Below, piece after piece: positions 7,323 to 21,149 of a DNA stretch of 64,000 bases. The DNA is from an uncultured Ruminococcus sp. GTDB lineage: Bacteria > Bacillota > Clostridia > Oscillospirales > CAG-272. The first letter of the stretch is position 1, and each line of letters begins with the position of its first letter. The notes beneath the pieces were generated by a model. It was not told the DNA's origin. It did not search any database and worked only from the letters and a program-made list of their open reading frames with translations. The stretch spans positions 62,001-126,000 of the forward strand of contig CADBKZ010000005.1 of assembly GCA_902795355.1 (NCBI GenBank), read 5' to 3'. Made by a program: the position numbers and the translations under genes.

Positions 7323-8239
7323 TTATTTCACTTCGTTCTTGTCAATTTTCTCCCGAACGGCGTTTTCGGCATCCGGACGGGGAAGGTTGCGGTATCTCTT
7401 GCGGTATTCGTATGGCGACATCCGCATCAACGCTTTGAACGCCCTGTGGTAGGCGGTGGTATCCGGATAGCCGACGGCAAGCGCAATCTCCCCAACCGAT
7501 TGCGAGCCGTTCAGCAACAGGCGGCAGCTCTCTTCCACGCGCGTTTTTTCAGATATTCCGAAAAGGTCATTCCCATGTCGTGTTTGAAGCATTTGCTCAT
7601 GTAGGGCAAGCTGTATTGCTTGTGCGGAAACGTATCCTCGATGCGAACGCGCTCGGCGTAATGCGAGCGAATATACTCCGCAATCATAAAGGAACGGTTT
7701 TCGTTGTCTTTCATGCCTTTCATTCCGATATTCCGCATCATGGAAATCAGAATCAGCAGCAAATAACAGCGAACGGTTTCCAAAAAGCCGGTTTTCTGTG
7801 CGGCGTACCCCGATTGAATGGCGTTCATGTGGCCGAGAATCAGCCCGTTCGGGTCGTTGTGAATCGTGCGCAGCGGGGAAAGGCAAAGGGCTTCTTTTTC
7901 AAAATGGATCAGATAATGGGAAAGAAGATCGTCGAAATGGTGAAAGCCGACCAGCCCGGGGTCGATGAAGTCGGGTGCGAACATGATGTTCACCATGGAA
8001 AACGGCTCGTTCGAAATGCGGTGGTATTCATGCGGCAGATCGTAGTCGATCAAATAGAAATTTCCCTCGCGGACAACCGTATGGTCGCGAGGGGTGGCAT
8101 ATTCTGTTTGACCCTTGACAATATAGACCAGCTCAAACCACTTGTGCGTGTGGAGCGGGACGTTGGAGTTTGCGCTTGTTTTTACGGTAACGCCTTGCTT
8201 TTCAATCCTGCGGGCGCATTCCTTCATGTTGGGGTACAT
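7323..8239 (-). pseudogene. AraC-family regulator split by a frameshift
   Basis: Transcriptional regulator with an N-terminal cupin sensor domain and a C-terminal double helix-turn-helix. The first frame (8239 to 7511) holds the cupin (HTHKWFELVYIVKGQ, FYLIDYDLPHEYHRI) and the first HTH up to MTFSEYLKK, then derails into RAWKRAAACC and stops. The second HTH and family signature (SVGEIALAVGYPDTTAYHRAFKALMRMSPYEYRKRY) continue in the -1 frame down to 7323. The junction is an A6 run on the coding strand (T at 7544-7549): one extra A, or a -1 slip, gives LKKTRVEES and one protein of about 305 residues. It is divergent from the exported operon at 8463. Mutation, assembly error or slippage cannot be told apart here. 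Confidence 0.85.
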
Positions 8240-8462: not shown

Positions 8463-10319
8463 ATGAAAAAGCTACTATCCCTCGCGCTTTCCGTCGCCTT
8501 GCTGCTGGGGCTCCTGATTTGCCCCGCCGCGGGCGAAGGAACCGCCGACCCTGAACCTGCCGCCCTGCTGTCGATTGACTTTGAGGACGGTTTTACCACT
8601 GACATGGCGGGTTCCGCCATCAAGGAAAAATTGGGGTGGACCGATTGGGATCTTTCGGTTGCCGACCTGAAAATTGTGGAAACCGTGTATTTCCGCGAGG
8701 TCAATGCCAAGGTGGGCGGAACGGTTGCGAGCGATCTCGCCGCCGCCAAAGCGATCCATGCGGGGCAAACGGGCGCATACAACCACGTAACCGTGGACAT
8801 TGCGCTTCTGAAAACGCTGGACAAATACAAGGACGTTGACTTTACCCAATACGCGACTTACAGCAAGAAACTCGCCGTTGTTCCGCAGGCGGACGCGGCG
8901 GACAATTCGGTTTCGGTTATGCTCGCCGAAAACGTTCCGGTTTCCAACAAGGGGCTGGATTCCCTGACGCTGGACTTTGAACTGACCCCCGATTACTACG
9001 GAACGCTGTCCGACCCCTCGACCTTCGGTAGCGGATCCTCGCTCGGTCTGCGCGTTTCCGGCGGCAGAGGAGACCTCTCACAATCGTTGCTGATTACGGG
9101 CGCGCTCCGCTTTACGGCGACCGCCAAGGACGGAACCGAAACGGTCAATTCCATAAAAGCGGATGATTGGTACATCAACAGCGGCGTTCGCACGAGCGCG
9201 AACGGCTACGGCGGCCTCGGGACCAACGATACCGTTGCCGTGACCTACAAGGATGGCGAGGGGGTCGGGCATCTGTTCTGCAATTCCGAAACCTCTACCA
9301 CCACCATGCATGGCTACGTCTTTGCGTTCCGCACGGTTTTAACCGAAGGGCAGATCGAAACATACGTTCAGCGCGTGTACGGAAATAACGCGGGCGAAAC
9401 CTACCGCGCGGGCCAGTGGGTATCCACCGCGGCCTACCGCACGGCCGAGTTCAACGCCGCCGCGGCCGCCGTTACCGCCGGAACGGGCGTTGGCAGCGTC
9501 AGTTTGGATTATTCCCATTCCGGCGTTGGTTTCTGGCTCGACGACATCAAAGTGGTCAAAACCGTGGACGGAAATGCAAAAGAAGTGGAAATTCTGGTCA
9601 ACGGGAAAACCGTAAAGGCGGTGGAAGGACGTAATATGGCCGTTGTTTCGCTGGCGCCCAATCCAACGGGGCTTCTCTATGCGGTGGTCAAAAACGGAAC
9701 TTCGGAGCGCAAGCTCTCCGCAACCGATTATGTAACCGTGGAAGCGGGCTTGGAAATCACCATGTATTCCGTCGATCTGGGCACCACCGCGGCGTCTATC
9801 CGCCCCGAGGATCCGGCGGGCATCCGCTGGACAACGACCATTGCAAAATCGAGCGTGGATCTTATCAACTCTCTGCTGGCCGAAGGAACGCTGAAAAAGG
9901 TGGAGTCGGGAACCATCATCACGCCCAAGTCCTATGCCGATAAGGCGGGCGGCTGCACCATGGAAAAGCTCGCAACGCTCAATTCCAATTATCCGTATCT
10001 CACCGCAACCGCAACATGGGGGAAATGGTACGCGCAGGATAACGAAAGCGTTACCATTGCCGGCTCGCTCGTTAAGCTCCGCAACACGGAAACCGCCGCG
10101 CACTACGGAATGGATTACACGGCGCGCGCGTTCGTAACCCTGACCATGGCGGATGGCTCGGCGGTAACCATTTATGCCGCGCAGAGCGAAGCGGAAACGG
10201 TTGCGAACGCCGCCGCGCTCGCACAAGCGGCCGTTGCGGCAAACGAGTTGCCGGCCGAATCCATTGAAGCGATCCGTGCGTTCCTGCCCGAAGGCGACGC
10301 ATACACGCTTTCCTATTAA
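8463..10319 (+). CDS. Secreted two-domain protein, paralog 1
   Basis: 618 residues. ATG 8463 follows AAAGGAGG by 8 bases and begins a Sec signal peptide (MKKLLSLALSVALLLGLL, cleavage near AAGEG). The N-terminal part (about residues 30-370) opens with SIDFEDGFTTDMAG and KLGWTDWDLSVADLKIVE and looks beta-rich, like a LamG/jelly-roll binding module. The C-terminal part (about 400-600) carries RPEDPAGIRWTT, GTIITPKSY and a GKWYAQ/IAGSL stretch. The same two halves recur in the protein at 12152-13927. I do not recognise an enzyme active site. There is no lipobox, cell-wall anchor or dockerin. It is first in the run controlled by the AraC-type promoter. The function is unknown; surface glycan binding is a guess. 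Confidence 0.8.
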   Translation: MKKLLSLALSVALLLGLLICPAAGEGTADPEPAALLSIDFEDGFTTDMAGSAIKEKLGWTDWDLSVADLKIVETVYFREVNAKVGGTVASDLAAAKAIHAGQTGAYNHVTVDIALLKTLDKYKDVDFTQYATYSKKLAVVPQADAADNSVSVMLAENVPVSNKGLDSLTLDFELTPDYYGTLSDPSTFGSGSSLGLRVSGGRGDLSQSLLITGALRFTATAKDGTETVNSIKADDWYINSGVRTSANGYGGLGTNDTVAVTYKDGEGVGHLFCNSETSTTTMHGYVFAFRTVLTEGQIETYVQRVYGNNAGETYRAGQWVSTAAYRTAEFNAAAAAVTAGTGVGSVSLDYSHSGVGFWLDDIKVVKTVDGNAKEVEILVNGKTVKAVEGRNMAVVSLAPNPTGLLYAVVKNGTSERKLSATDYVTVEAGLEITMYSVDLGTTAASIRPEDPAGIRWTTTIAKSSVDLINSLLAEGTLKKVESGTIITPKSYADKAGGCTMEKLATLNSNYPYLTATATWGKWYAQDNESVTIAGSLVKLRNTETAAHYGMDYTARAFVTLTMADGSAVTIYAAQSEAETVANAAALAQAAVAANELPAESIEAIRAFLPEGDAYTLSY

Positions 10320-10355
10320 CCTTTGCAAAATCGATTGAAGAAAGGAGAAACCACC

Positions 10356-10598
10356 GTGAAAAAGCTGTTTGCCATTCTGCTGTTGCTGGTTGTTTTGGCT
10401 CTCGCCGTCGCCGCCTGCGCACCAAAAACCGAACCGGCGGACACCGCAGCCGCCTCGGGCGGGGAAACCATTCCTTCCGTTACCACGGGCGAGGGAACTT
10501 CCGCCGAGCCGACGGTAACAACCGAACCGACGGCTGCCACGACAATGGACCCCGCCGATCCATACGTCAAGGACGCATTGTTCCCATCGCTGGATTGA
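10356..10598 (+). CDS. Small Thr-rich lipoprotein
   Basis: 80 residues starting at GTG 10356, 8 bases after AAAGGAG. The signal peptide ends in a lipobox VAAC with the modified Cys at residue 21. The rest is a low-complexity Thr/Ala/Pro/Glu linker (TEPTVTTEPTAATT) and a short tail, DPYVKDALFPSLD. With no globular domain, it could be a spacer-like surface lipoprotein or a remnant that lost its domain. It lies 36 bases after the secreted paralog and 25 bases before the binding lipoprotein. Confidence 0.7.
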   Translation: MKKLFAILLLLVVLALAVAACAPKTEPADTAAASGGETIPSVTTGEGTSAEPTVTTEPTAATTMDPADPYVKDALFPSLD

Positions 10599-10623
10599 TC
10601 GAAAACACAATAAGGAGATTTTT

Positions 10624-12105
10624 ATGAAAAGACTACTGCTGATTTTCTGCTGTCTTGCTCTCGCGCTCGGCATGTTGGCCGCCTGCGGAACCGCAAAGGA
10701 AAATCCCACGGAAACGACCGGCGTCGCAACCGGAACCGAGGAGACCACCGCGGGAGACGACACCCCCGAAAACAAAAGGCTCGGGCTGAACCTTTCCGAG
10801 CTGAATTTCAACAACGAGGAAGTAACCATTGTTCAGCGCAACAACACCGAAATGGAGATCAAAGGGGATAACGACGTTACGGCGGGCCTTGTGAATCAAA
10901 AGGTGTATTCCCGCAACGAGCGCGTTATGGCGAACCTCAATGTGTATCTCAATTTCAAAACCGTTCCCGGAACGGTGAACGACATTCAGGAATACGTTTC
11001 CAAGATCCGCATTGCGTCCATGTCGGATACGCCCGAATACGATATTTCTTCCTGCTATGCCTATTTTTCGGTGCAAATTGCAAAAGAGGGAACGCTGGCA
11101 AACCTGCTCGAATTGCCGCATGTGGATTTGAGCAAGGCTTGGTGGAACCAGAGCTTTGTGGCGGTGAACACCCTGAACGGCCGGTTGTATTCGCTAACGG
11201 GCGACATCACCACCTCTCTGATCGACGAAACCGAGGTCGTGTTCTTCAACCGTTCGCTGGTGGACACCAATTTCCCCGAGGGCGAGGATCTTTACGACGT
11301 GGTTCTCGCGGGCGATTGGACGCTGGAAGAATTGGAAAAGCGCGTTCATTCGGTTGGCTATCAGGAATCGTTCGGAACGCTGCTCGTCGGCTATAATTCC
11401 AATGCCGTGGACGGATTGCTGATGGGAACGGACGTTAAAATCTGCTCCCGCAACGCAAATAACCAATATCAAATGGCCATGGCAAGCGATGTCAATTACA
11501 CCATGGTGGAGCGGCTGAAAACGCTGGTGCATAACGAATCGGACGGCGTGTTCGGAACGGGCAGCGGCGCGGCGACCTCCGCGTACCGGTATAATTATGT
11601 CAACAGCTTTGCAAACGGGCAGGGGATGTTCTTTATCTTCCGCATGTCCCATGCAAGAAACGTTCTTTCGGGCTACGTGCTCGATTACGGGATTCTGCCT
11701 ATGCCCAAAGCAAACGCGGAGCAGGATAACTACCAATGCACCCCGCACGATGAATACAGCGCGCTCGCGGTATTCAACAATGTCAGCGCGGAGCGCAAGG
11801 AACGCGCAGGTGCGGTTTTGGAACTGATGGGCTATTATTCCAATTCGGAAATCCGCCCGCTGGTTTACGAAACCATGTATAAACTCCGCACGTTCGACGA
11901 GCAGACCTCGAAAATTTTCGATCTGATTGTGGATAACACCACTTTCGATTTCGGCTATGTCTGGTCGAATGTAATCGGCGATCCCGTTCATGTGTTCCGC
12001 AACTACATCTGGCAGAACGAGGACGGCTTGGCAAGCAAGGTCAGCGGTTTAACGTCCGACCGCCTGATTGCCGAACTGATGGACTATTTTTACAGCGAGG
12101 ATTGA
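10624..12105 (+). CDS. Extracellular solute-binding lipoprotein, sugar type (orphan)
   Basis: 493 residues with a lipoprotein signal ending LAAC (Cys21), then a Thr/Glu-rich linker. The body reads like a family 1 sugar-binding protein of an ABC importer: NLNVYLNFKTVPGTVNDIQEYV, the VVFFNRSLVD hinge region, DVVLAGDWTLEELEK, and a C-terminal SAERKERAGAVLELMGYYS. Such proteins capture oligosaccharides outside the cell and hand them to two permeases. No permease or ATPase gene lies in this window, so it either serves a distant transporter or acts as a sensor or binding protein. The preceding gene ends 25 bases upstream. Confidence 0.82.
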   Translation: MKRLLLIFCCLALALGMLAACGTAKENPTETTGVATGTEETTAGDDTPENKRLGLNLSELNFNNEEVTIVQRNNTEMEIKGDNDVTAGLVNQKVYSRNERVMANLNVYLNFKTVPGTVNDIQEYVSKIRIASMSDTPEYDISSCYAYFSVQIAKEGTLANLLELPHVDLSKAWWNQSFVAVNTLNGRLYSLTGDITTSLIDETEVVFFNRSLVDTNFPEGEDLYDVVLAGDWTLEELEKRVHSVGYQESFGTLLVGYNSNAVDGLLMGTDVKICSRNANNQYQMAMASDVNYTMVERLKTLVHNESDGVFGTGSGAATSAYRYNYVNSFANGQGMFFIFRMSHARNVLSGYVLDYGILPMPKANAEQDNYQCTPHDEYSALAVFNNVSAERKERAGAVLELMGYYSNSEIRPLVYETMYKLRTFDEQTSKIFDLIVDNTTFDFGYVWSNVIGDPVHVFRNYIWQNEDGLASKVSGLTSDRLIAELMDYFYSED

Positions 12106-12151
12106 CCTTGCGTCAACCGCTTTCCAACATCAATTAAAAAAGGAGATTGTT

Positions 12152-13927
12152 ATGAAAACCAAAAAACTACTTTCCGTTCTGCTGGCGGTTCTGCTGGTTG
12201 CGGGAATGATCCCAGCGGCGGCCCTGACCGTCAGCGCGGACGGCGTTTACACCGATTACTATTATGAAGATTTTGAAGGTTTTTCCACCGATATGAACAC
12301 GGCGGAAATTTCCGAACGGCTCGGCTGGACAACATGGGACGCTTCCGTTGCCAATTTGAAGATTGTGAACGTCAACAATAATCTGAAATTGCAGATTGTT
12401 CCCGTTGCTGCAAACAGGAGTACTTCTGCCACGTTGATTTCCGGTATTGACATTCGGGAGGCGGGCGTACTCCTTGCAGATTTCGAGATCATTCCCGTAA
12501 AAGCAGATACAATATCGGATACAACCCAATATGAAAGCGGTTCCCGTTTGATGATGGCAATTACCTTCCCGATTACCGGAGAAAGCGGCGCAAACCGCAT
12601 TGAGCAGGGGCTTTCCGTTGCGGGCAGACAAGTAAAACGTGCGGTTATAAACGGCTCAACGTATGCAAAAGCCAACAATTCTAATTCGTGGAATACATGG
12701 TATAATACAGCTACTCGCTTAAATAAACCATATGGCACTATTGGCGTGAATAATACAAATGTAACTTATTATAATGGCGAAACCAACAACTATCTTTTCA
12801 CCGATAGTGCAAATGCAGACGGTTATCCCTTTATTTACCGTATGCGGATTGATACAACCAATTCCATATCGTTCCGTTCTTACGTAGCCACCTACACTAA
12901 CAGTAAAACGGCTACCGCTTCCAGCAATTTCATTTGGACTCCGGTAGTAGGCAACACAGAAGACAGCGAAGCTGCTATTATCGCCAAGGGTTATACGACA
13001 TCACAATATCCGGGGGATATGTGTACTCCCGTGACTAATTTCCTGAACGATGGAAATTTCACCGGAAAGGTGGACGTTTCATTCCGATATGAAGCGAGCG
13101 GCGTTTCCTTTTATGTGGATAACATTTTGGTTTCCAACCGAGATACCACAACGGGAAATTCCTTAACAACCATCACGGTGGACGGCGCCGCGCGCAAGGT
13201 TGTGGACGGCGTGACCGTCTTGGTCAACGATTTCACCCCCGCCGGCAAGCAACTGCTCTATGCCGAGGTGAACGGCGCAATCAAGTACGCGGATGATACG
13301 GTCACGCTCGCCGAGGGAACGACGATCACCACCCATGCCGTGGAAATTTCCATGGTTTCGGGCGCGCAGGCTCGGCTGAATGATCCTTCCGGCTTGCGTT
13401 GGCAAACCAAACTCAACCAAGCGGATCTTGACGCGCTTGCCGCCGACGCCAATCTTTCCAACCTGACCATTGGCACCGTAATTCTTCCGGAATCCTATTA
13501 CAACACGCTGGAAAGCCTTTCTTTTGCCAATCTGGAATCCATTGAGGTGGTTTCCGGCGCGAAATACCTGAACGTGGACGCAACGGTCGGCAAATGGTTC
13601 GATACGGACGCGGAGAACTACATTTTCGCAGGTTCGCTGGCGGAAATCAAAGAGAGCCACTACGAAACCGATTTTATCGGCGTTGGCTATCTGACAGCGG
13701 AGATTGACGGGCGCACGGTGGAGCTGTTTGCCGAACCTTCCGGAGCGAGAAGCGTTCGGTATGTTGCGAACGCCGCGCTGGCCGACGTCAGCGCAACGCA
13801 AGAGGAAATCTACCAATATGCCGTTTCCCAATACCGTACCGCGGGCGGCGACGTGGTAAACGGGGACGCATACAGCCCCTATACCGAAGCGGAACGCGCC
13901 ATCCTTTGGGGTTTTTTTGGGCAATGA
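12152..13927 (+). CDS. Secreted two-domain protein, paralog 2
   Basis: 591 residues with a Sec signal peptide (MKTKKLLSVLLAVLLVAGM, cut near VSADG). Same architecture as the 8463 protein: the N-terminal DFEGFSTDMNTAEISERLGWTTWD matches its DFEDGFTTDM...KLGWTDWD, and the C-terminal half repeats RLNDPSGLRWQTKL, IGTVILPESYYN, GKWFDTDAENYIFAGSL and a YTEAERAILWGFF end. DNA around 12660-12780 falls to about one third GC, against about 55% in the 3' part, so the N-terminal module may be a recombined patch. The stop TGA (13925-13927) overlaps the next ATG, and T7 lies just before it (see 13912-13927). No function assigned. Confidence 0.8.
   Translation: MKTKKLLSVLLAVLLVAGMIPAAALTVSADGVYTDYYYEDFEGFSTDMNTAEISERLGWTTWDASVANLKIVNVNNNLKLQIVPVAANRSTSATLISGIDIREAGVLLADFEIIPVKADTISDTTQYESGSRLMMAITFPITGESGANRIEQGLSVAGRQVKRAVINGSTYAKANNSNSWNTWYNTATRLNKPYGTIGVNNTNVTYYNGETNNYLFTDSANADGYPFIYRMRIDTTNSISFRSYVATYTNSKTATASSNFIWTPVVGNTEDSEAAIIAKGYTTSQYPGDMCTPVTNFLNDGNFTGKVDVSFRYEASGVSFYVDNILVSNRDTTTGNSLTTITVDGAARKVVDGVTVLVNDFTPAGKQLLYAEVNGAIKYADDTVTLAEGTTITTHAVEISMVSGAQARLNDPSGLRWQTKLNQADLDALAADANLSNLTIGTVILPESYYNTLESLSFANLESIEVVSGAKYLNVDATVGKWFDTDAENYIFAGSLAEIKESHYETDFIGVGYLTAEIDGRTVELFAEPSGARSVRYVANAALADVSATQEEIYQYAVSQYRTAGGDVVNGDAYSPYTEAERAILWGFFGQ
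13912..13927 (+). other. T7 slip site with ATGA overlap
   Basis: In the frame of the upstream gene the codons read GGT TTT TTT GGG CAA TGA, so the seven Ts form the heptamer T TTT TTT of a -1 slippery site. A -1 slip, or one more T, would fuse the secreted paralog to the MBL protein as one chain of about 990 residues. Without slippage the genes overlap as ATGA. No strong ribosome site precedes the ATG at 13924. Confidence 0.55.
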
Positions 13928-15114
13928 CACTTCCGCGACCCTCGGGAGTGTCCGTCCCCGAAACCGATTGCGCGGACGGATTTACCGCAACCGTATATGA
14001 AAACAAGACCGCCGACGATTTCTCGGCCTATTGCGCGTCCTTGCAGGCGCATGGCTGGTCGCCGGTTGCGCAGAGCAATTTCGACTCCGCGCTTGTCTCC
14101 GCAACCTTTGCGGGCTTTGGCAAAACGGTGCATACCTACTTTGCCGCGGCCGAGGGGTGCATCCGGCTGGTCGTTGGGGACGCCTCGCCCGCTTCGCTCT
14201 CGCAACCCTATGCCGCGGAATTAACCGCAACCGCGCCGAAAGCCGCCATGCTCGGCCTGAACTGCAACAACGGCATGGCGTTGGTATTCTCCCTCTCGGA
14301 TGGCTCGTACATCGTTTATGATGGCGGCGAGACCGCGGCCGACGCGGACCTGCTCTATCAATATCTGTCCGAAAACAACCGCCGCGCCGACGGCGAGATC
14401 GTTGTTGCCGCATGGGTCGTCACCCATGAACACACCGACCATTACGGCGCGCTCCCGTTCTTTGCCGCGGCATACGGCAATCGGGTCCGGGTGGAGAACT
14501 TTCTGGTCAACGGGTACGCGCCCGCAAGTGTGAACCCTGCCATTTCTTCCTATGCCGGTTTCCTCTCCGATCCGGCGAACGGATCCGAGGCGGCCATTCG
14601 CGGAATTGCCCGCACGCTTGGCGCGCAGGTTGTCAAAGCGCATACGGGGCAGGTGTTTGAGATCCGCGACGCGGAGTTGAAAATCCTGTTTACGCACGAG
14701 GACCTTTACCCGAACGCCGATCCCGGCGCCCCGATCAACGGGCGCACAATGGATGCCAACGATCTTTCCGTGGTTTCCATGCTCACGCTCGGCGGCAAAA
14801 AATTCCTGTTGGCGGGCGACGCGCTCGATTTTGCCCTTCGGAAACTGGTGGAATATTACGGCGAAAGCGATGTGCTTGTCTGCGACGTTCTGCAAGTCCC
14901 GCACCACGGCAACCTCGGCGGCATTCGCTGCAACCCCGATGGGGAGAACACCGGCGGGCTGTTTATTGCCGCCGCAAACCCCTCTGTTGCGTGGTTCTCC
15001 ACTGATGAAGCGAGCTTTGCGGGTTACTGCAACAGCGCGTTCAACACCCTTCTTCTGGCTCGGGTCGGCAGCTGCCAAACGGCGGCCGAAACCCGCGAGA
15101 TGATTTTGAATTGA
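13924..15114 (+). CDS. ComEC-like metallo-beta-lactamase-fold protein
   Basis: 396 residues from ATG 13924. The metal-binding HEHTDH motif starts near residue 168 (preceded by AAWVVT), with DGG in FSLSDGSYIVYDGGE near 140, a LAGDA strand near 300, and PHHG near 326. The PHHG form is typical of the ComEC C-terminal nuclease-like MBL group. Residues 1-110 form an extra domain that aligns with residues 310-410 of the lipoprotein at 15340. It has no signal peptide of its own, although all its neighbours are exported, and homology seems to begin right at the junction. It may therefore be translated by coupling, or as a fusion with the upstream secreted protein. Confidence 0.75.
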   Translation: MTLPRPSGVSVPETDCADGFTATVYENKTADDFSAYCASLQAHGWSPVAQSNFDSALVSATFAGFGKTVHTYFAAAEGCIRLVVGDASPASLSQPYAAELTATAPKAAMLGLNCNNGMALVFSLSDGSYIVYDGGETAADADLLYQYLSENNRRADGEIVVAAWVVTHEHTDHYGALPFFAAAYGNRVRVENFLVNGYAPASVNPAISSYAGFLSDPANGSEAAIRGIARTLGAQVVKAHTGQVFEIRDAELKILFTHEDLYPNADPGAPINGRTMDANDLSVVSMLTLGGKKFLLAGDALDFALRKLVEYYGESDVLVCDVLQVPHHGNLGGIRCNPDGENTGGLFIAAANPSVAWFSTDEASFAGYCNSAFNTLLLARVGSCQTAAETREMILN

Positions 15115-15129
15115 GAAAGGAACCGTACC

Positions 15130-15255
15130 ATGAAAAAGCAATATGAAATTCCCGTTTTATTGTTGATCGTTCTGGATCCCGCCGACCTGTTGACTGCTTC
15201 GGGGGATCCGCAAGGAGACCTGAACGACCGTTTTTGCATTGATATTTTCCGTTAA
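15130..15255 (+). CDS. 41-residue peptide with DLLTASG motif
   Basis: Small gene between the two MBL genes: ATG 15130, 9 bases after AAAGGA, stop at 15253. The sequence starts MKKQYEIPVLLLIVL and continues DPADLLTASGDPQGDL. It resembles the short MKK.YE.P...DVITASG peptides I associate with many clostridial genomes, whose role is not established. It has no signal peptide. A strong terminator hairpin follows 11 bases downstream. This could be a precursor or signalling peptide, or a leader. The identification rests on the motif and gene signals only. Confidence 0.5.
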   Translation: MKKQYEIPVLLLIVLDPADLLTASGDPQGDLNDRFCIDIFR

Positions 15256-15266
15256 ATCCCTTGTCC

Positions 15267-15318
15267 GGAAGCCCGCGAAATTTCCAATGCGGAAATTTCG
15301 CGAGGCTTTCCGCGTTTT
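15267..15318 (+). terminator. Terminator-like hairpin
   Basis: A stem of about 19 bp (15267-15285 with 15291-15311, one bulge) with loop AATGC is followed by GCGTTTTC. It probably ends or attenuates the exported operon ahead of the second MBL gene. Confidence 0.65.
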
Positions 15319-15339
15319 CTCCATTGTAAGGAGCTACCT

Positions 15340-17406
15340 ATGAAAATCAGACAATTATCCGCGCTTCTTTGCGCAATTGTATTGCTGTCGGCCGCGGCAA
15401 TCTCCTGCGGCAAAAGCGAACGGAACGTTCCCGCCGAAACGGGGGTTGTTACCACCGGCGAATCGGCGGAGTTTCCGCTGGAATCGGTTACGATTGTTCG
15501 CCCCGACAGCCCTACCGACAATGAAAAAGCCGCGGCAACCGCCATTCGGCTGGCGTTGGCGGAGCGGGGAATTACCGCAAAAGTCAGCGGCGAGGCCGCA
15601 CTGGACGCGAAAAACCGGAATTATGAAATTCTGGTCGGCAAGGTCTCCCGTCCCGAAACCGAGCAGGTTCTTTCCGAATTGGGAACGCAGGCGGTTTGGG
15701 CGGTACGCGCTGTGGGCAATAAAATCGTAATCGCATCGCCGTTTCAACTGCTGCTTGGCGAAGCCGTTGAGCGGTTTGTTTCCATGCTCGGCGCGGCAAG
15801 CGGAAAAACGCTTGCCTTGCCCCTTGCCATGCAGAGCGACCCGCACGGAACGGTTGCGCTGGTGGAAAACGGGAAACAGAAATATCGCCTTGTCTATTCC
15901 GCCGATATTCCCGCGCAGACCTACAACGCCATGTCCGAGCTTTCGTCCGTCCTCTTTGCCGCAACCGGCAGAACGGTCGCCTCTTTGACCGACGCGTCCG
16001 TTGCGAGCGTTGACCGCGCCGCGGTCAACGAACTTTTAATCGGTTCAACCTGCCTTCCCGAAAGCGTTCGGGAAGCGGAAGCCCTTGCGCCGTCCGATTA
16101 TGGCATCGCCTTGCGCGGCAATAAACTGTTGGCTTTGGGGCGAACCGAGCTTTCCGGCAAGCTCGCGGTGGATTTATTGCGCTCTCTGCTCCAAACGTTT
16201 ACGAACGCGGATGGAACCAAAAGCGTTTATCTGCTGTACGACGCGCCGATTGTATACTCGCTGGATGGCTATTATCTGGATTTTCCGCGTCCGGAAGATC
16301 TTTCGGAAACCGCAAATCTGGACGCGGCGAACGGTAACATGCAATTTGTCTATCAAAATGCGTCGGCGGTTGATTTCATCGGCTATTGCGCCGCGCTCGA
16401 AGCCCACGATTTTGAGCTTTACGATTCCAATATCATCGGTTCCAACCGATACGCCGCCTATACCTCGGAGAGCGGGATCCTGTACCTTTCCTATACCGCC
16501 GCCGTTTCTACGCTCCGCGTGGTCAGCGCGCCGAAGGAGAGCGCGCTGTATCCGGTCTCGGCAGAATCCTATACCGCTGTTACAACGCCCGACGTTGCAT
16601 TGCTCTCCCTGACCTACAACGAGGCGAGCAACAACGGCATGTGCATGGTGTTCACGCTTTCGGACGGCTCTTATCTTGTCTGGGACGGCGGGGAGAACAG
16701 CAGCCACGCGGGCATCCTTTTTGAATATCTCGAACAGCACAATCGGCGGGCGGACGGAAAAATTGTGATTGCGGGGTGGTTTCTGACCCATGCGCACACC
16801 GACCATTACGGCGCGTTTCCGCTGTTTGCGTCCTCGTTCGGCAAACGGGTCGAGGTCGAGGCAATCTATGCCAACGGGTACAGCGAATGGGCGGTGACAT
16901 GCACGGTCAACACCGCGCTTTCGTCCCTGATCCCCACCTATGCCAACGCGTTTGCCAACGGGAAAGCCAAGTTTGTAAAGGTTCATACGGGGGAGAAGCT
17001 CCGCATTCGCGACGCAACGGTGGAAATTCTGCTCACCCACGAGGATTTTTGCCCCGACCTGATCAACGACGCAAACGACACTTCCACCGTTTGCATGGTC
17101 ACGCTGGGAGGGAAGCGCGTGCTGGTAACGGGCGACGCCCATAACAAGGCGAACGCTTTGCTTGTCCGCAATTTCGGGTCGTCGCTCGCGTGCGATATTT
17201 TTCAGGTTCCACACCATGGTCACAGCGGAATGTCGGTCTCCCTTGCGGATGCGGCAAGCCCGTCGATCGCGCTCTTTCCAACGGGCGAGTACGGCTACAA
17301 CAAGTATAAAAACCAAACGGAGAACCGCTACCTGATCGGCAAAGTCGGCGAATCGAACGTTTATTACGCGGATGGAATGCACAAGATCTTTTCGCTCGGG
17401 AGCTGA
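15340..17406 (+). CDS. ComEC-like MBL-fold lipoprotein
   Basis: 688 residues. The signal peptide ends in lipobox AISC (Cys23), so the protein should be anchored outside the membrane. The N-terminal 300 residues form a domain of unknown fold (ESVTIVRPDSPTDNEKAA, GKVSRPETEQVL, ELLIGST), followed by the 100-residue module shared with the 13924 protein. The MBL domain has HAHTDH near residue 484, VTGDAH near 594 and PHHG near 624. Known proteins with this MBL type hydrolyse phosphodiesters or lactones, and an extracellular nuclease or phosphodiesterase is a reasonable guess. It follows the terminator hairpin by 21 bases, with AAGGAG before ATG 15340. Confidence 0.8.
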   Translation: MKIRQLSALLCAIVLLSAAAISCGKSERNVPAETGVVTTGESAEFPLESVTIVRPDSPTDNEKAAATAIRLALAERGITAKVSGEAALDAKNRNYEILVGKVSRPETEQVLSELGTQAVWAVRAVGNKIVIASPFQLLLGEAVERFVSMLGAASGKTLALPLAMQSDPHGTVALVENGKQKYRLVYSADIPAQTYNAMSELSSVLFAATGRTVASLTDASVASVDRAAVNELLIGSTCLPESVREAEALAPSDYGIALRGNKLLALGRTELSGKLAVDLLRSLLQTFTNADGTKSVYLLYDAPIVYSLDGYYLDFPRPEDLSETANLDAANGNMQFVYQNASAVDFIGYCAALEAHDFELYDSNIIGSNRYAAYTSESGILYLSYTAAVSTLRVVSAPKESALYPVSAESYTAVTTPDVALLSLTYNEASNNGMCMVFTLSDGSYLVWDGGENSSHAGILFEYLEQHNRRADGKIVIAGWFLTHAHTDHYGAFPLFASSFGKRVEVEAIYANGYSEWAVTCTVNTALSSLIPTYANAFANGKAKFVKVHTGEKLRIRDATVEILLTHEDFCPDLINDANDTSTVCMVTLGGKRVLVTGDAHNKANALLVRNFGSSLACDIFQVPHHGHSGMSVSLADAASPSIALFPTGEYGYNKYKNQTENRYLIGKVGESNVYYADGMHKIFSLGS

Positions 17407-17407
17407 A

Positions 17408-19684
17408 ATGGGAAATCGGTTGAAACCTGTTTGGCCTGTCGGCGCGCAGGATCGGGTTCATACGCATTATGCTTTTTTGCTCCGCGCCGAGCATTTGAAG
17501 GAAAGCGCGGTTCTTCGCCTTGCGGCGGAGAATCTTTACCGCGTTCATATCGGCGGTCGCTGTGCGGGGGCCGGACCTGTTCGCTGTGCGCACGGCGTCA
17601 GCCAAATCGATGAATTTCCGCTGTCGCCCTATCTTTCGGGCGGCTTCGCGGTCGTCTGCGTGGAAGTTACGGGGTATGGCATTTCGGTGCTTTCCGATGT
17701 GAACGACCCACCCTTTTTTGCAGCTGAAATCGTTGCGGGAGAAACGGTCTGTTATTCTTCTTCCGATTTTGTTGCCTATCTGCTCTCCGATGTTCTGCGG
17801 CGCGTTCCGCGGTATAGCTGGCAGCGGTATTTTCTCGAATGTTACCGCATGGAGCAGGACCGCGCGGGGCTTTGGAACGGCGATGCAGAGGGGTTGCGCT
17901 CCGTTCCGTGCGAAGCGGTTGCGGGGAACCGCCTTGTTCCGCGCGACGTTTCCTACCCGCGTTACGAAACGCAGACCGTGTCGGGGCCGATCGCGGTGGG
18001 AACGGTGGGAGAACAAACGGATCCCGCCCCCTATCCCGAACGGTACCTTTACGAGATCGGGGAAAACGGATTCCCCTATGAAACCATTCCCGATTCCCCG
18101 ATCGAGGAATATTTGCGGATGAAGTTTACGGTTGGGGGCGAGCGGACGACCGGCGGGCGATTCGCGCTCTACGATCTGGGGCGCGACCTTTCGGGGTTTC
18201 TGCTCCTGCGAATCCGCGTTACCGCTCCCGCGCGCGTCTTTCTGCTGTGGGACGAGGTTTTAAGCGATGCGGGAACGGTGGATCCGCTCCGCATGCGCAT
18301 GGCAAATATGATTCGCTACGATCTTGCCGTTGGCGACTATCTGCTCGAATCCATGGAGCCGTACACCCTGCGCTATGCCGAGGCGGTTTTGGCGTCGGGC
18401 GAGGCAACGGTGGCGGCGGTCGGCGTGCGGCGGTATGAAAATCCGGACGCGGCGCGCTTGACCGTTGAGGGGGAAAACCGTGCGCTTTCAGTCTTAACAG
18501 AAGCGGCGCGGGCAACGCCGGCGCAGAACGCGGTGGATATTCTGACCGATTGCCCCTCGCGGGAGCGCGTTGGCTGGCTGTGCGATTCGTTCTTCACAGG
18601 CGCGGCCGAAGCGCTTTTTACGGGGGAAAACCGCGTGGAACGGCACTTTTTGGAGACCTATCTGCAATGCGGGCAATCGCCGTATCTGCCGCAGGGTATG
18701 CTTCCGAAAAGCTACCCGGGGGAGTTTCCGCTCACCAAGAATTTCATTCCCAATTGGGCCATGTGGTATGTGTTGGAGCTATGCGCGTACCGGAACCGCA
18801 CAGGCGATACGGAGATCGCGCTGCAAGCCCGCGGACAAGTTGAAGCTCTGCTGCGCTATTTTGCTCGGTTTGAAAACGAAATCGGTTTGCTGGAAGATCT
18901 GGAAAGCTGGATTTTTGTGGAGTGGAGCCGCGCAAACGACTTTGTAGACGGGGTCAATTTCCCGAGCAATATGCTGTATAGCGGAATGTTGGACGCGGCG
19001 GCGGAACTTTACGGGCTCCCCCGATTGGCGGAAAAGGCGGCGACGATCCGAAAAACGGTGCGCGAACTTTCCCGCGGGAAGGATGGATTTTACCGTGATC
19101 ATGCCGTTCGGGAAAAAGGCGAGTTGAAAACAGCGCCGGAGCGGAGCGAAACCTGCCAATATTACGCGCTGGCGTTCGGCGTTGCCGACCGTGAACGCGA
19201 CGCGGTGCTGGTGGAAATACTCCTGCGCGATTTCGGCCCGCATCGGGACGCGGACGCCGTATATCCGGACGTTTATCCGTCCAACGCGTTCATCGGCAAC
19301 CTGCTCCGATTGATTTGGCTTTCGGACCACGGCTATGCGGAAGATGTTTTTGCGCAAATATCCGGTTATTACCTCGGCATGGCGCAAAAAACGGGAACTT
19401 TATGGGAATACGACAGCCCCCAAAAAAGCTGCTGCCATGGCTTTGCCGCCTGCATTGCCGTTCTCCTGCTCCGCGCGCAAATTGGTTATGTCGGCCGATC
19501 CGGCAATCGGCTGCGGTTTCTTCCAACCTTTCTCCAAACGGATTGCCGCGTCGTTCTGCCGCTTCCAAGCGGGAAATCGGCAACCGTAACGGTTCAAAAT
19601 GGAAAGCGGACGATTTGCATTCCGGAAGGGTATCGGATCGAAGAATCCAATGAAGGCTTTTTTGGGCGAAAGGAGAGGATGTAG
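17408..19684 (+). CDS. Alpha-L-rhamnosidase-like glycoside hydrolase (GH78 type)
   Basis: 758 residues, no signal peptide, so likely cytoplasmic. It starts at ATG 17408, one base after the preceding stop. N-terminal beta-domains (GRFALYDLGRDLSGFLLLRIRVTAPARV) lead into an (alpha/alpha)6 barrel with the family signature DCPSRERVGWLCDS near residue 381; its acidic residues and RE pair match the rhamnosidase DCPQRxERxGWxGD motif. Trp-rich barrel segments (NWAMWYVLELCAYR, ESWIFVEWSRANDFVDG) follow. It would release L-rhamnose from imported oligosaccharides, linking to rhaB at 155. It is shorter than many GH78 enzymes, and activity on another deoxyhexose is possible. Confidence 0.78.
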   Translation: MGNRLKPVWPVGAQDRVHTHYAFLLRAEHLKESAVLRLAAENLYRVHIGGRCAGAGPVRCAHGVSQIDEFPLSPYLSGGFAVVCVEVTGYGISVLSDVNDPPFFAAEIVAGETVCYSSSDFVAYLLSDVLRRVPRYSWQRYFLECYRMEQDRAGLWNGDAEGLRSVPCEAVAGNRLVPRDVSYPRYETQTVSGPIAVGTVGEQTDPAPYPERYLYEIGENGFPYETIPDSPIEEYLRMKFTVGGERTTGGRFALYDLGRDLSGFLLLRIRVTAPARVFLLWDEVLSDAGTVDPLRMRMANMIRYDLAVGDYLLESMEPYTLRYAEAVLASGEATVAAVGVRRYENPDAARLTVEGENRALSVLTEAARATPAQNAVDILTDCPSRERVGWLCDSFFTGAAEALFTGENRVERHFLETYLQCGQSPYLPQGMLPKSYPGEFPLTKNFIPNWAMWYVLELCAYRNRTGDTEIALQARGQVEALLRYFARFENEIGLLEDLESWIFVEWSRANDFVDGVNFPSNMLYSGMLDAAAELYGLPRLAEKAATIRKTVRELSRGKDGFYRDHAVREKGELKTAPERSETCQYYALAFGVADRERDAVLVEILLRDFGPHRDADAVYPDVYPSNAFIGNLLRLIWLSDHGYAEDVFAQISGYYLGMAQKTGTLWEYDSPQKSCCHGFAACIAVLLLRAQIGYVGRSGNRLRFLPTFLQTDCRVVLPLPSGKSATVTVQNGKRTICIPEGYRIEESNEGFFGRKERM

Positions 19685-19685
19685 T

Positions 19686-20474
19686 TTGAACGCAAAATGG
19701 ATCAGGCCGTTTCCGCCGTTCCGGCTTGCGGACGATCTTTGCTATGTCGGAACCGACGGCGGCCCCGCGTATCTGCTCGCGACCGGCGACGGGCTTGTGA
19801 TGATCGACGCGAGCTACCCCGAAACCTTTTCGTCGGTTACGGCGGGGATCCGCCAAATGGGCTACGACCCCGCGGACATCCGCCATATTCTGTTGACGCA
19901 CGGGCATTTGGACCATGTTGGCGGCGCGGCGGCATTGGCCGCGGAGACCAAGGCAAAAATCTACATCGGCGCGCCGGACGCGGACGCCGTTGCCGGAAAG
20001 AACGACTTGATTTTTGCCGACGGGGAAACGATTGCGGATGTTCCGTATTTCACACCGGATGTCCTGCTGTCGGACGGCGATGTGCTGCGCTTCGGAAACA
20101 CCGAAATCCGGTGCGTTTCCACCGCGGGACACACGGCGGGCGCAATGTCCCTTTTCTTTCCCGTGCATCTCGCGGGAAAGGAATACCGCGCGGGAATGTT
20201 CGGCGGAGCGGGTTTGAACACGCTGACCGCGGCCTATCTGGATCGCCACGGGTTGCCGCGCGCCCTGCGGAGCGATTACCTGCGCAGCATTGAAAAAATT
20301 TACGGGGAGCCGGTGGAGTTTCATGTCGGCAACCATTTGAGCGACAACCGCTCCCGCGAAAAAATGAAACGCGTTGGGGAAGAACCCAACCCCTTTCTTG
20401 CGGAAAACACCTATCGGTCCTTTTTGGAAACGAAACGCACGGCGGCGTTGGAACTGTTCCGAAAAGAGCCGTAA
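19686..20474 (+). CDS. Metallo-beta-lactamase-fold hydrolase
   Basis: 262 residues from TTG 19686, which directly follows the TAG of the rhamnosidase gene and sits 10 bases after AGGAG. ATG 19650 is the alternative, but it would lie far inside the previous gene. Motif THGHLDHVGG near residue 75 and TAGHTAGAMSLFF near 150 give the classical HxHxDH...H site, followed by a C-terminal FHVGNHLSDN. This subgroup includes glyoxalase II-like and lactone hydrolases and differs from the two ComEC-like MBLs upstream. Cytoplasmic. In this context a sugar-lactone hydrolase is attractive but unproven. Confidence 0.78.
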   Translation: MNAKWIRPFPPFRLADDLCYVGTDGGPAYLLATGDGLVMIDASYPETFSSVTAGIRQMGYDPADIRHILLTHGHLDHVGGAAALAAETKAKIYIGAPDADAVAGKNDLIFADGETIADVPYFTPDVLLSDGDVLRFGNTEIRCVSTAGHTAGAMSLFFPVHLAGKEYRAGMFGGAGLNTLTAAYLDRHGLPRALRSDYLRSIEKIYGEPVEFHVGNHLSDNRSREKMKRVGEEPNPFLAENTYRSFLETKRTAALELFRKEP

Positions 20475-20495: not shown

Positions 20496-21149
20496 ATGAA
20501 CGAACAACAATTGATTGAAGAAATACAGGAAAGCAAAATCATCACCATTTTGCGCGGTCTGGATGAACAGGCGCTGGTCAAAACCGTGGAAGCCATGGCA
20601 AAGGGCGGGATCCGTTTTGCGGAAGTCACTTTCAGCGCAACGGGAGAACCGTCCGATGAAACCGTTGCGGAATATATCCGCGTGTTGGCGTCCCGCTTTG
20701 CCGGAAGGGTACATATCGGCGCTGGAACCGTTCTGACCGAGCGGCAGGTCGCGCTTGCCGCAAACGCGGGCGCGGAATTTATCATTTCGCCGGACACCAA
20801 TCCGGAAATCATCCGAAAGACAAAATCCCTCGGTTTGGTCTCCATTCCGGGCGCGTTCACGCCGAGCGAAGCCACCGCGGCAAACCGTGTCGGCGCGGAT
20901 TTTATCAAACTGTTTCCGAACAGCGAGGTCAAAATCTCCTATCTCAAAGCGTTGGCGGTCCCGCTTTCCCATATCCGCTTTCTCGCGGTTGGGGGCGTGA
21001 ACGACGAGAACTTGCCGGAATACCTCGCGGCAGGCGCAAAAGGCGTTGGAATTGCAACCGGAATCGTCAATAAAAAACTGATTGCGGCAGGCGATTTTGA
21101 AGGAATTACCGCGTTGGCGGAAAAATATGTGCGTGCTGCGAGCATTTGA
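20496..21149 (+). CDS. eda: KDPG/KHG-type aldolase
   Basis: 217 residues, class I Schiff-base aldolase of the Entner-Doudoroff type, splitting 2-keto-3-deoxy acids or their phosphates to pyruvate and an aldehyde. The sequence shows KIITILRG at the N-terminus, GGIRFAEVTFSA with the catalytic Glu near residue 44, GAGTVLT near 75, and the Schiff-base lysine in DFIKLFPNSE near 134. The middle ISPDTNPEII and C-terminal GGVN/GVGIATG phosphate loop are typical. Exact substrate is uncertain. It sits 21 bases after the MBL gene and 13 bases before a hydroxyacid dehydrogenase, suggesting catabolism of a sugar acid. Confidence 0.86.
   Translation: MNEQQLIEEIQESKIITILRGLDEQALVKTVEAMAKGGIRFAEVTFSATGEPSDETVAEYIRVLASRFAGRVHIGAGTVLTERQVALAANAGAEFIISPDTNPEIIRKTKSLGLVSIPGAFTPSEATAANRVGADFIKLFPNSEVKISYLKALAVPLSHIRFLAVGGVNDENLPEYLAAGAKGVGIATGIVNKKLIAAGDFEGITALAEKYVRAASI

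Follow-up and report, generated by a model that had tools for sequence, protein, structure and literature searches.

Our results suggest that a tiny open reading frame (ORF) in a surface operon of an uncultured Ruminococcus sp. belongs to a large family of precursor-like peptides. The window, a stretch of 64,000 nucleotides (assembly GCA_902795355.1, contig CADBKZ010000005.1, positions 62,001 to 126,000), carries at positions 8463 to 17406 a group of genes on one strand, here called A to F, which encode two secreted paralogs (A and C), a sugar-binding-type lipoprotein (B), two proteins with a metallo-β-lactamase (MBL) domain (D and F) and a 41-residue peptide (E), together with a linker-only lipoprotein. 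The same type of surface operon is found again in sister species, and this locus is one copy of it. Directly observed are the peptide family, the fixed geometry of its leader, its place behind genes for exported proteins, and its co-occurrence and neighbourhood with a cassette of HprK-like, PqqD and S26-peptidase-like genes. The explanation that we tentatively favour, short of calling it probable, is that E is a leader-bearing precursor within this recurring surface operon and is processed by the cassette, which lies elsewhere in the genome. An initial annotation of the locus had recognised a surface system, which is supported, but had missed that the peptide has many precursor-like relatives and that this large family co-occurs with such a cassette.

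A family of short peptides with a conserved leader

The 41-residue peptide of the initial annotation is indeed present, and it has many relatives. A profile made from 33 peptides, E being one of the seeds, gave 44 matches at E<0.05 in 1.14 Mb, including all 33 seeds; the best score in the reversed-sequence control was 6.8 bits. When 51 peptides are anchored on the leader Tyr (a count that leaves out two of the 17 own-genome peptides), Pro is found at +3 in 44, Asp at +14 in 49 and Ser at +19 in 50. Beyond the Ser no single residue occurs in more than 13 of 49, a variable tail as in short precursors with a conserved leader. The scanned peptides received no family name from Pfam or NCBIfam.

The genome that holds the window carries 16 copies by a class-wide profile scan, and 17 were found in the stretches fetched from it, 15 of them with a gene no more than 60 bases upstream. 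By a strict rule this close upstream gene is exported in 12 of the 15 cases, compared to 47 of 155 other close pairs (p 2e-4); in relatives the corresponding figures are 19 of 28 and 68 of 167 (p 0.007). The next larger upstream gene encodes a protein with the C-terminal 'GLRW/GLRF' domain of A and C (the C-domain) for 26 of the 44 peptides, covering 24 of 55 C-domain genes, a share that is not a genome-wide rate because many stretches were picked for this domain. Past the stop codon of the peptide, a stem-loop scores z -3 or below against mononucleotide shuffles in 17 of 43 cases, some with a T-run; by the same measure the one in the window, 3' of E and between E and F, scores z -3.5. This structure may set the ratio between the upstream and downstream genes.

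The Y-x-x-P leader resembles the leaders of lasso peptides, and eight genomes were therefore searched for lasso parts. Lasso-type matches of the peptides themselves are sub-threshold (E 0.23 and 0.096).

The peptides co-occur with an HprK-like, PqqD and S26-like cassette

A PqqD match (PF05402) over cut-off, indicating a leader-binding-type protein, is present in six of these eight genomes. The PqqD gene is flanked by an HprK-like gene, whose P-loop is intact, and by an S26-peptidase-like gene, an order seen in 26 of 30 loci. Pfam PF27840.1 is assigned to many homologs of the HprK-like protein.

In Fisher tests, which treat these related genomes as independent, peptide and HprK-like gene are strongly associated. 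Among the 60 nearest genomes, the genome of the window included, 36 have both, 2 the peptide only, 1 the HprK-like gene only and 21 neither (p 7e-13). For the 25 relatives outside the genus the counts, in the same order, are 8/0/1/16 (p 8e-6) at the peptide threshold of 0.01 used for relatives, three of the eight (G036, G044 and G054) lying between 0.002 and 0.01. The class sample of 156 genomes, from many families and at a threshold of 0.001, gives 18/0/7/131 (p 3e-18) for the full-length HprK-like gene, so that this gene is found in 18 of 18 genomes with the peptide compared to 7 of 138 without. Full-length matches were told from partial ones of the canonical HPr-kinase-like type by an alignment start at or before residue 15, a split set after the table had been seen; when every HprK-like match is counted, the result for the class is 18/0/27/111 (p 1e-11). 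Note that at least five genomes (G000, G048, G049, G054 and G058) are in both samples, and that G000 and G054 had contributed sequences to the second peptide profile.

The peptide and the HprK-like gene are neighbours in at least eight genomes. In G028, G010, G044, G054 and G057 they lie within about 1 kb of each other on the same strand in the fetched stretches, and in G098, G133 and G136 the match coordinates give this same distance and shared strand. Gene calls in the stretches came from a codon-bias caller trained on 16 window genes, which fails in AT-rich stretches (almost no genes in L225, L226 and L228), and the neighbours in G133 and G136 therefore rest on match coordinates. In G098, which belongs to another family, stretch L227 has a C-domain protein, a peptide, a PqqD gene and an ABC-exporter-like gene one after the other. 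Long-tailed variants of the peptide adjoin the cassette in L210 (E 0.025) and L211 (E 0.065). By eye, nucleotidyltransferase-like genes are seen in L205 and L209 to L211, and ABC-exporter-like genes in L198, L199, L203 and L212.

The closest curated counterpart that we compared is the HPr-rel-A system of NCBIfam (HprK-related kinase A and PqqD_rel_X), which has the same HprK-like and PqqD pairing and gives weak matches (E 1e-3). The scores here are, however, far below the curated cut-offs, and PF27840.1 on the kinase-like homologs is a further difference. A search of one open-access library returned nothing joining 'PqqD' and 'HprK', only papers on lasso peptides or irrelevant results. As a separate observation, the HprK-like and PqqD genes of stretch L207 (G049, contig C18) are accompanied by radical-SAM-like and ABC-like genes, a further locus for peptide modification in which the names, except for the profile matches, were given by eye.

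Several observations weigh against processing of E by this cassette. Both the kinase-like and the peptidase-like proteins match their families weakly, with scores below cut-off. The largest number of peptides, 37, is found in G021, a genome listed as 94% complete that gave neither an HprK-like nor a PqqD match, and G001 too has peptides without an HprK-like match; conversely, in seven genomes of the class the full-length gene is present while no peptide was detected. Among 16 stretches, the surroundings of the HprK-like gene in L197, L198, L200, L201, L203, L206, L207, L209 and L212 hold no peptide at E<0.01. In the genome of the window the cassette is far from every peptide, and E itself directly follows D, which overlaps C, and not a secreted protein.

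The operon in the window and in related genomes

The features of the locus and its surroundings are as follows.

7323 to 8239, - strand: divergent AraC-type regulator, in ORFs 7511-8239 and 7323-7538 in different frames
8463 to 10319, + strand: A, secreted paralog of C with the C-terminal CD ('GLRW/GLRF') domain (blastp, CD profile)
10356 to 10598, + strand: linker-only lipoprotein, 80 residues, GTG start (lipobox and low-complexity linker in the sequence)
10624 to 12105, + strand: B, orphan sugar-binding-type lipoprotein (profile A4 against MalE)
12152 to 13927, + strand: C, secreted, with a predicted lectin-type N-domain (residues 31-335) and a CD domain (about 350-545)
13924 to 15114, + strand: D, X-MBL protein, no signal peptide (Lactamase_B E 7e-11; 40% identity to F)
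15130 to 15255, + strand: E, 41-residue precursor-type peptide like those of ribosomally synthesised and post-translationally modified peptides (RiPPs) (family profile; leader Y-x-x-P ... D ... S)
15274 to 15310 (approximate limits), + strand: stem-loop past the E stop, a 13-pair stem within 110 bases 3' of the stop
15340 to 17406, + strand: F, lipoprotein with two GH20/GH84-type N-domains, an X module and an MBL domain (structure model, profiles, Foldseek)
17408 to 19684, + strand: GH78-type rhamnosidase (Bac_rhamnosid6H E 4e-14)
19686 to 20474, + strand: MBL-fold protein (Lactamase_B E 1e-19)
20496 to 21149, + strand: KDPG-aldolase-like protein (named by eye from the translation)
to 22113, + strand: 2-hydroxyacid-dehydrogenase-like protein (named by eye from the translation)

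The AraC gene that the initial annotation placed in front of the operon is present and divergent, but it is split over two frames. AraC_binding and HTH_AraC were matched by Pfam in the ORF at 7511-8239, and the ORF at 7323-7538 matches the same script-made profile; either a mutation or an assembly error could have caused the split. D probably starts at the ATG at 13924, judging from the sequence, so that it overlaps the stop codon of C.

Two secreted paralogs had been proposed, and A and C, both with signal sequences, align accordingly (blastp E 8e-34, 29% identity over 522 columns). At E<0.05 Pfam recognises no family in A, B or C, and their NCBIfam matches are all sub-cut-off, as are the family matches of the linker lipoprotein, which is as had been described. 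The N-domain of C is predicted to have a legume-lectin-type fold; a PDB sequence search with the C alignment gave nothing at E<=1, and one relative of C was among the matches listed, with 7995 candidates scored. As to B, named earlier as an orphan sugar-binding lipoprotein, a profile of 14 B-type lipoproteins matches MalE weakly (E 7e-4), in agreement with that name. B has 18 long matches in its own genome (B included) and one short one. The nine permease matches (PF00528) in this genome include none on the window's contig C5, which bears out the earlier statement that no permease lies nearby. By eye, two permease pairs on contig C1 are of the sugar type and the rest have peptide-, polyamine- or nitrate/sulfonate-type neighbourhoods. 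Since 18 long B matches face two sugar-type permease pairs, it is plausible from the sequences that B-type lipoproteins share a permease. A cluster in L145 (G000, contig C1) combines two sugar-type permease pairs with very large exported proteins and is a candidate for the shared transporter.

The gene set recurs in relatives. Proteins of the C type were found in 14 of the 60 genomes, all of one genus, and proteins of the F type in 32; a script-made profile detected 55 C-domain proteins in the fetched stretches, many of which had been chosen around C-domain matches. In L089, L103 and L104, from two sister species (G021 and G034), the order is binding lipoprotein, C-domain protein, peptide of about 40 residues, lipoprotein MBL and second MBL, so the neighbourhood of the 'GLRW/GLRF' domain and ComEC-like MBLs that the initial annotation had suggested looking for does exist. 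In L123 and L127, C-domain proteins, a peptide, a linker lipoprotein and a binding lipoprotein occur with two Exo_endo_phos proteins recognised by a script-made profile; for the Exo_endo_phos pair in L053, Pfam confirmed PF03372. Among 34 exported GHb-MBL or GHb-EEP genes, 24 have two neighbours visible per side, and for 16 of these 24 those neighbours include a gene of the same enzyme family whose product was scored as non-exported, or for 14 of 24 if two that by eye look exported or wrongly started under this crude export rule (L088 8782 and L107 14319) are set aside. Four stretches of the window's own genome (L052, L053, L055 and L058) have lipoprotein and non-exported Exo_endo_phos proteins, a binding lipoprotein and an AraC gene, a parallel to the MBL pair of the window. 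In L057 (1231-3836, - strand) a GHb-EEP lipoprotein adjoins a gene that looks by eye like a glycerophosphodiester phosphodiesterase. An undescribed cell-surface system, as the initial annotation had it, is supported by the lack of Pfam matches for A, B and C at that threshold of 0.05 and by the joint occurrence of the modules in further species of the genus, so that the refuting conditions set in that annotation do not overturn it.

The genes past F raise the question of an ordinary sugar-uptake or polysaccharide-use locus, in which the tiny ORF would be an unmodified translated by-product of operon ends and the co-occurrence with the cassette would reflect shared ancestry. We consider this unlikely, although it is the best of the alternatives. 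Like Gram-positive polysaccharide-utilisation loci, this one has an AraC regulator, a sugar-type binding lipoprotein and a glycosidase of the GH78 type, with sugar-acid genes in the same row, and related genomes are non-independent samples. Against this reading stand leader residues fixed in 44 to 50 of 51 peptides, the distribution in the 156 class genomes and the direct neighbourhood in at least eight genomes. In addition, utilisation loci of this kind differ in that here contig C5 has no ABC permease match and the surface enzymes are of the phosphodiesterase type. Judging from its neighbouring genes, the locus may have a link to rhamnose. The MBL-fold protein directly past the rhamnosidase has no signal peptide and reaches 160 bits with subclass B3 models, for which the cut-off is 240; a beta-lactamase label was not given, its score being below every cut-off shown.

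Relation to lasso peptide systems

Quite improbable, in our judgement, is that the peptides are precursors of lasso-type or other bacteriocins with surface proteins upstream by chance. Besides the leader, what speaks for this is that lasso PqqD models are the nearest match of the PqqD proteins here, though below cut-off (E 1.5e-9). Genes of these kinds are common in lasso clusters: a survey of ruminal bacteria that looked for such clusters gives HPr kinase/phosphorylase in about 58%, PqqD in about 46% and nucleotidyltransferase in about 30% of the genomes it analysed, and phosphorylation of the precursor at its C-terminal Ser is within the reach of HPr-type kinases (PMC7533575, PMC8498205). 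Lasso systems with an HPr-type kinase, of the paeninodin kind, thus share with the loci described here a PqqD-type leader-binding protein, an HprK-like gene and a short precursor with a Y-x-x-P-type leader, and some related loci also have the nucleotidyltransferase-like and ABC-exporter-like genes seen by eye. However, the B2 family (PF13471) is over cut-off in none of the eight genomes, with sub-cut-off matches in two (the cyclase was not searched), and an S26-peptidase-like gene is found instead. Moreover, the many scattered copies are coupled to genes for exported surface proteins.

The MBL proteins D and F

D and F are 40% identical over 396 columns, including the module that precedes the MBL domain; Pfam sees Lactamase_B in both, and the HxHxDH, GD and HHG motifs are present. 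The initial annotation had called them two ComEC-like MBL proteins with a shared module, which holds, except that D lacks the signal peptide and F is a lipoprotein. The metal residues H484, H486, D488, H489, D599, H625 and H626 are invariant across 25 sequences. The structure model of F (predicted local distance difference test, pLDDT, 86.9) contains two copies of a GH20/GH84-type N-domain. Searches of F against PDB profiles gave ComEC (E 1e-10) and the phosphorylcholine esterase Pce (E 4e-9), and Foldseek gave the same two (ComEC E 5e-13; Pce, 2bib, E 6e-11). Because it resembles both, the lipoprotein MBL is likely, as far as sequence and model go, a surface phosphodiesterase.

Both likenesses have limits. 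ComEC shares the fold and the motifs, but Pfam scans found no membrane channel (Competence) domain in D or F, and here the MBL domain sits on a GH20/GH84-type lipoprotein and on a second protein with no signal peptide. Pce/CbpE, which acts on teichoic acid, is likewise a surface MBL-fold enzyme, but F has no choline-binding repeats by Pfam. A search for related loci queried with F gave no confirmed locus. Two further observations concern these proteins: L101 (3095-15450, - strand) encodes three tandem proteins of 1326-1361 residues, each with the X-MBL part at its end, and contigs C29 and C37 of G028 give the same MBL matches with identical scores, probably a stretch duplicated in the assembly.

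The least probable reading, and a very doubtful one, is that F and D scavenge DNA or RNA outside the cell as nucleases, with the Exo_endo_phos paralogs doing the same elsewhere. The GH20/GH84-type N-domains, the lectin-type partner and the sugar-type binding protein point to a glycan, even though ComEC is the best profile and fold match of F, the ComEC domain is reported to have metal-dependent nuclease activity (PMC8579336), and L054 has, by eye, a nucleoside-hydrolase-like gene.

Proposed mechanism and its meaning

The binding and processing of an external polymer, as first suggested, fits the predicted fold of C and the ComEC/Pce-type MBL, readings that come from sequence and models. In the mechanism that we propose, the operon would be under AraC control, and A and C would be secreted and bind a glycan through their lectin-type domains, a fold modelled for C. 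F, anchored in the membrane, would cleave phosphodiesters of that polymer in the way that Pce acts on teichoic acid, an activity suggested by its fold and metal motifs. B may then catch the released sugars for import by a shared permease, and D, the related enzyme with no signal peptide, would complete the hydrolysis inside the cell. As for E, the PqqD protein would bind the Y-x-x-P leader and the kinase-like protein would phosphorylate the peptide; the S26-like peptidase would cut near the invariant Ser, and the product would leave the cell and work with its partner surface protein.

Possibly, though we hold this with appreciable doubt, these peptides form a new RiPP-like class in Clostridia-type genomes, in which a genome would use a single cassette to mature scattered precursors, up to dozens of them, every one encoded downstream of a particular secreted surface protein and giving that protein its own modified peptide partner (a ligand, cofactor or signal), here in a surface phosphodiesterase operon. 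If so, a large group of nameless tiny ORFs would be precursors of modified peptides that can be recognised by a simple rule on the leader and belong with one definite cassette, and this would explain the 40-codon ORFs behind many surface-protein genes in these genomes. Finally, surface lipoproteins with ComEC/Pce-type and Exo_endo_phos domains would gain a testable role in cleaving phosphodiester-bearing polymers.

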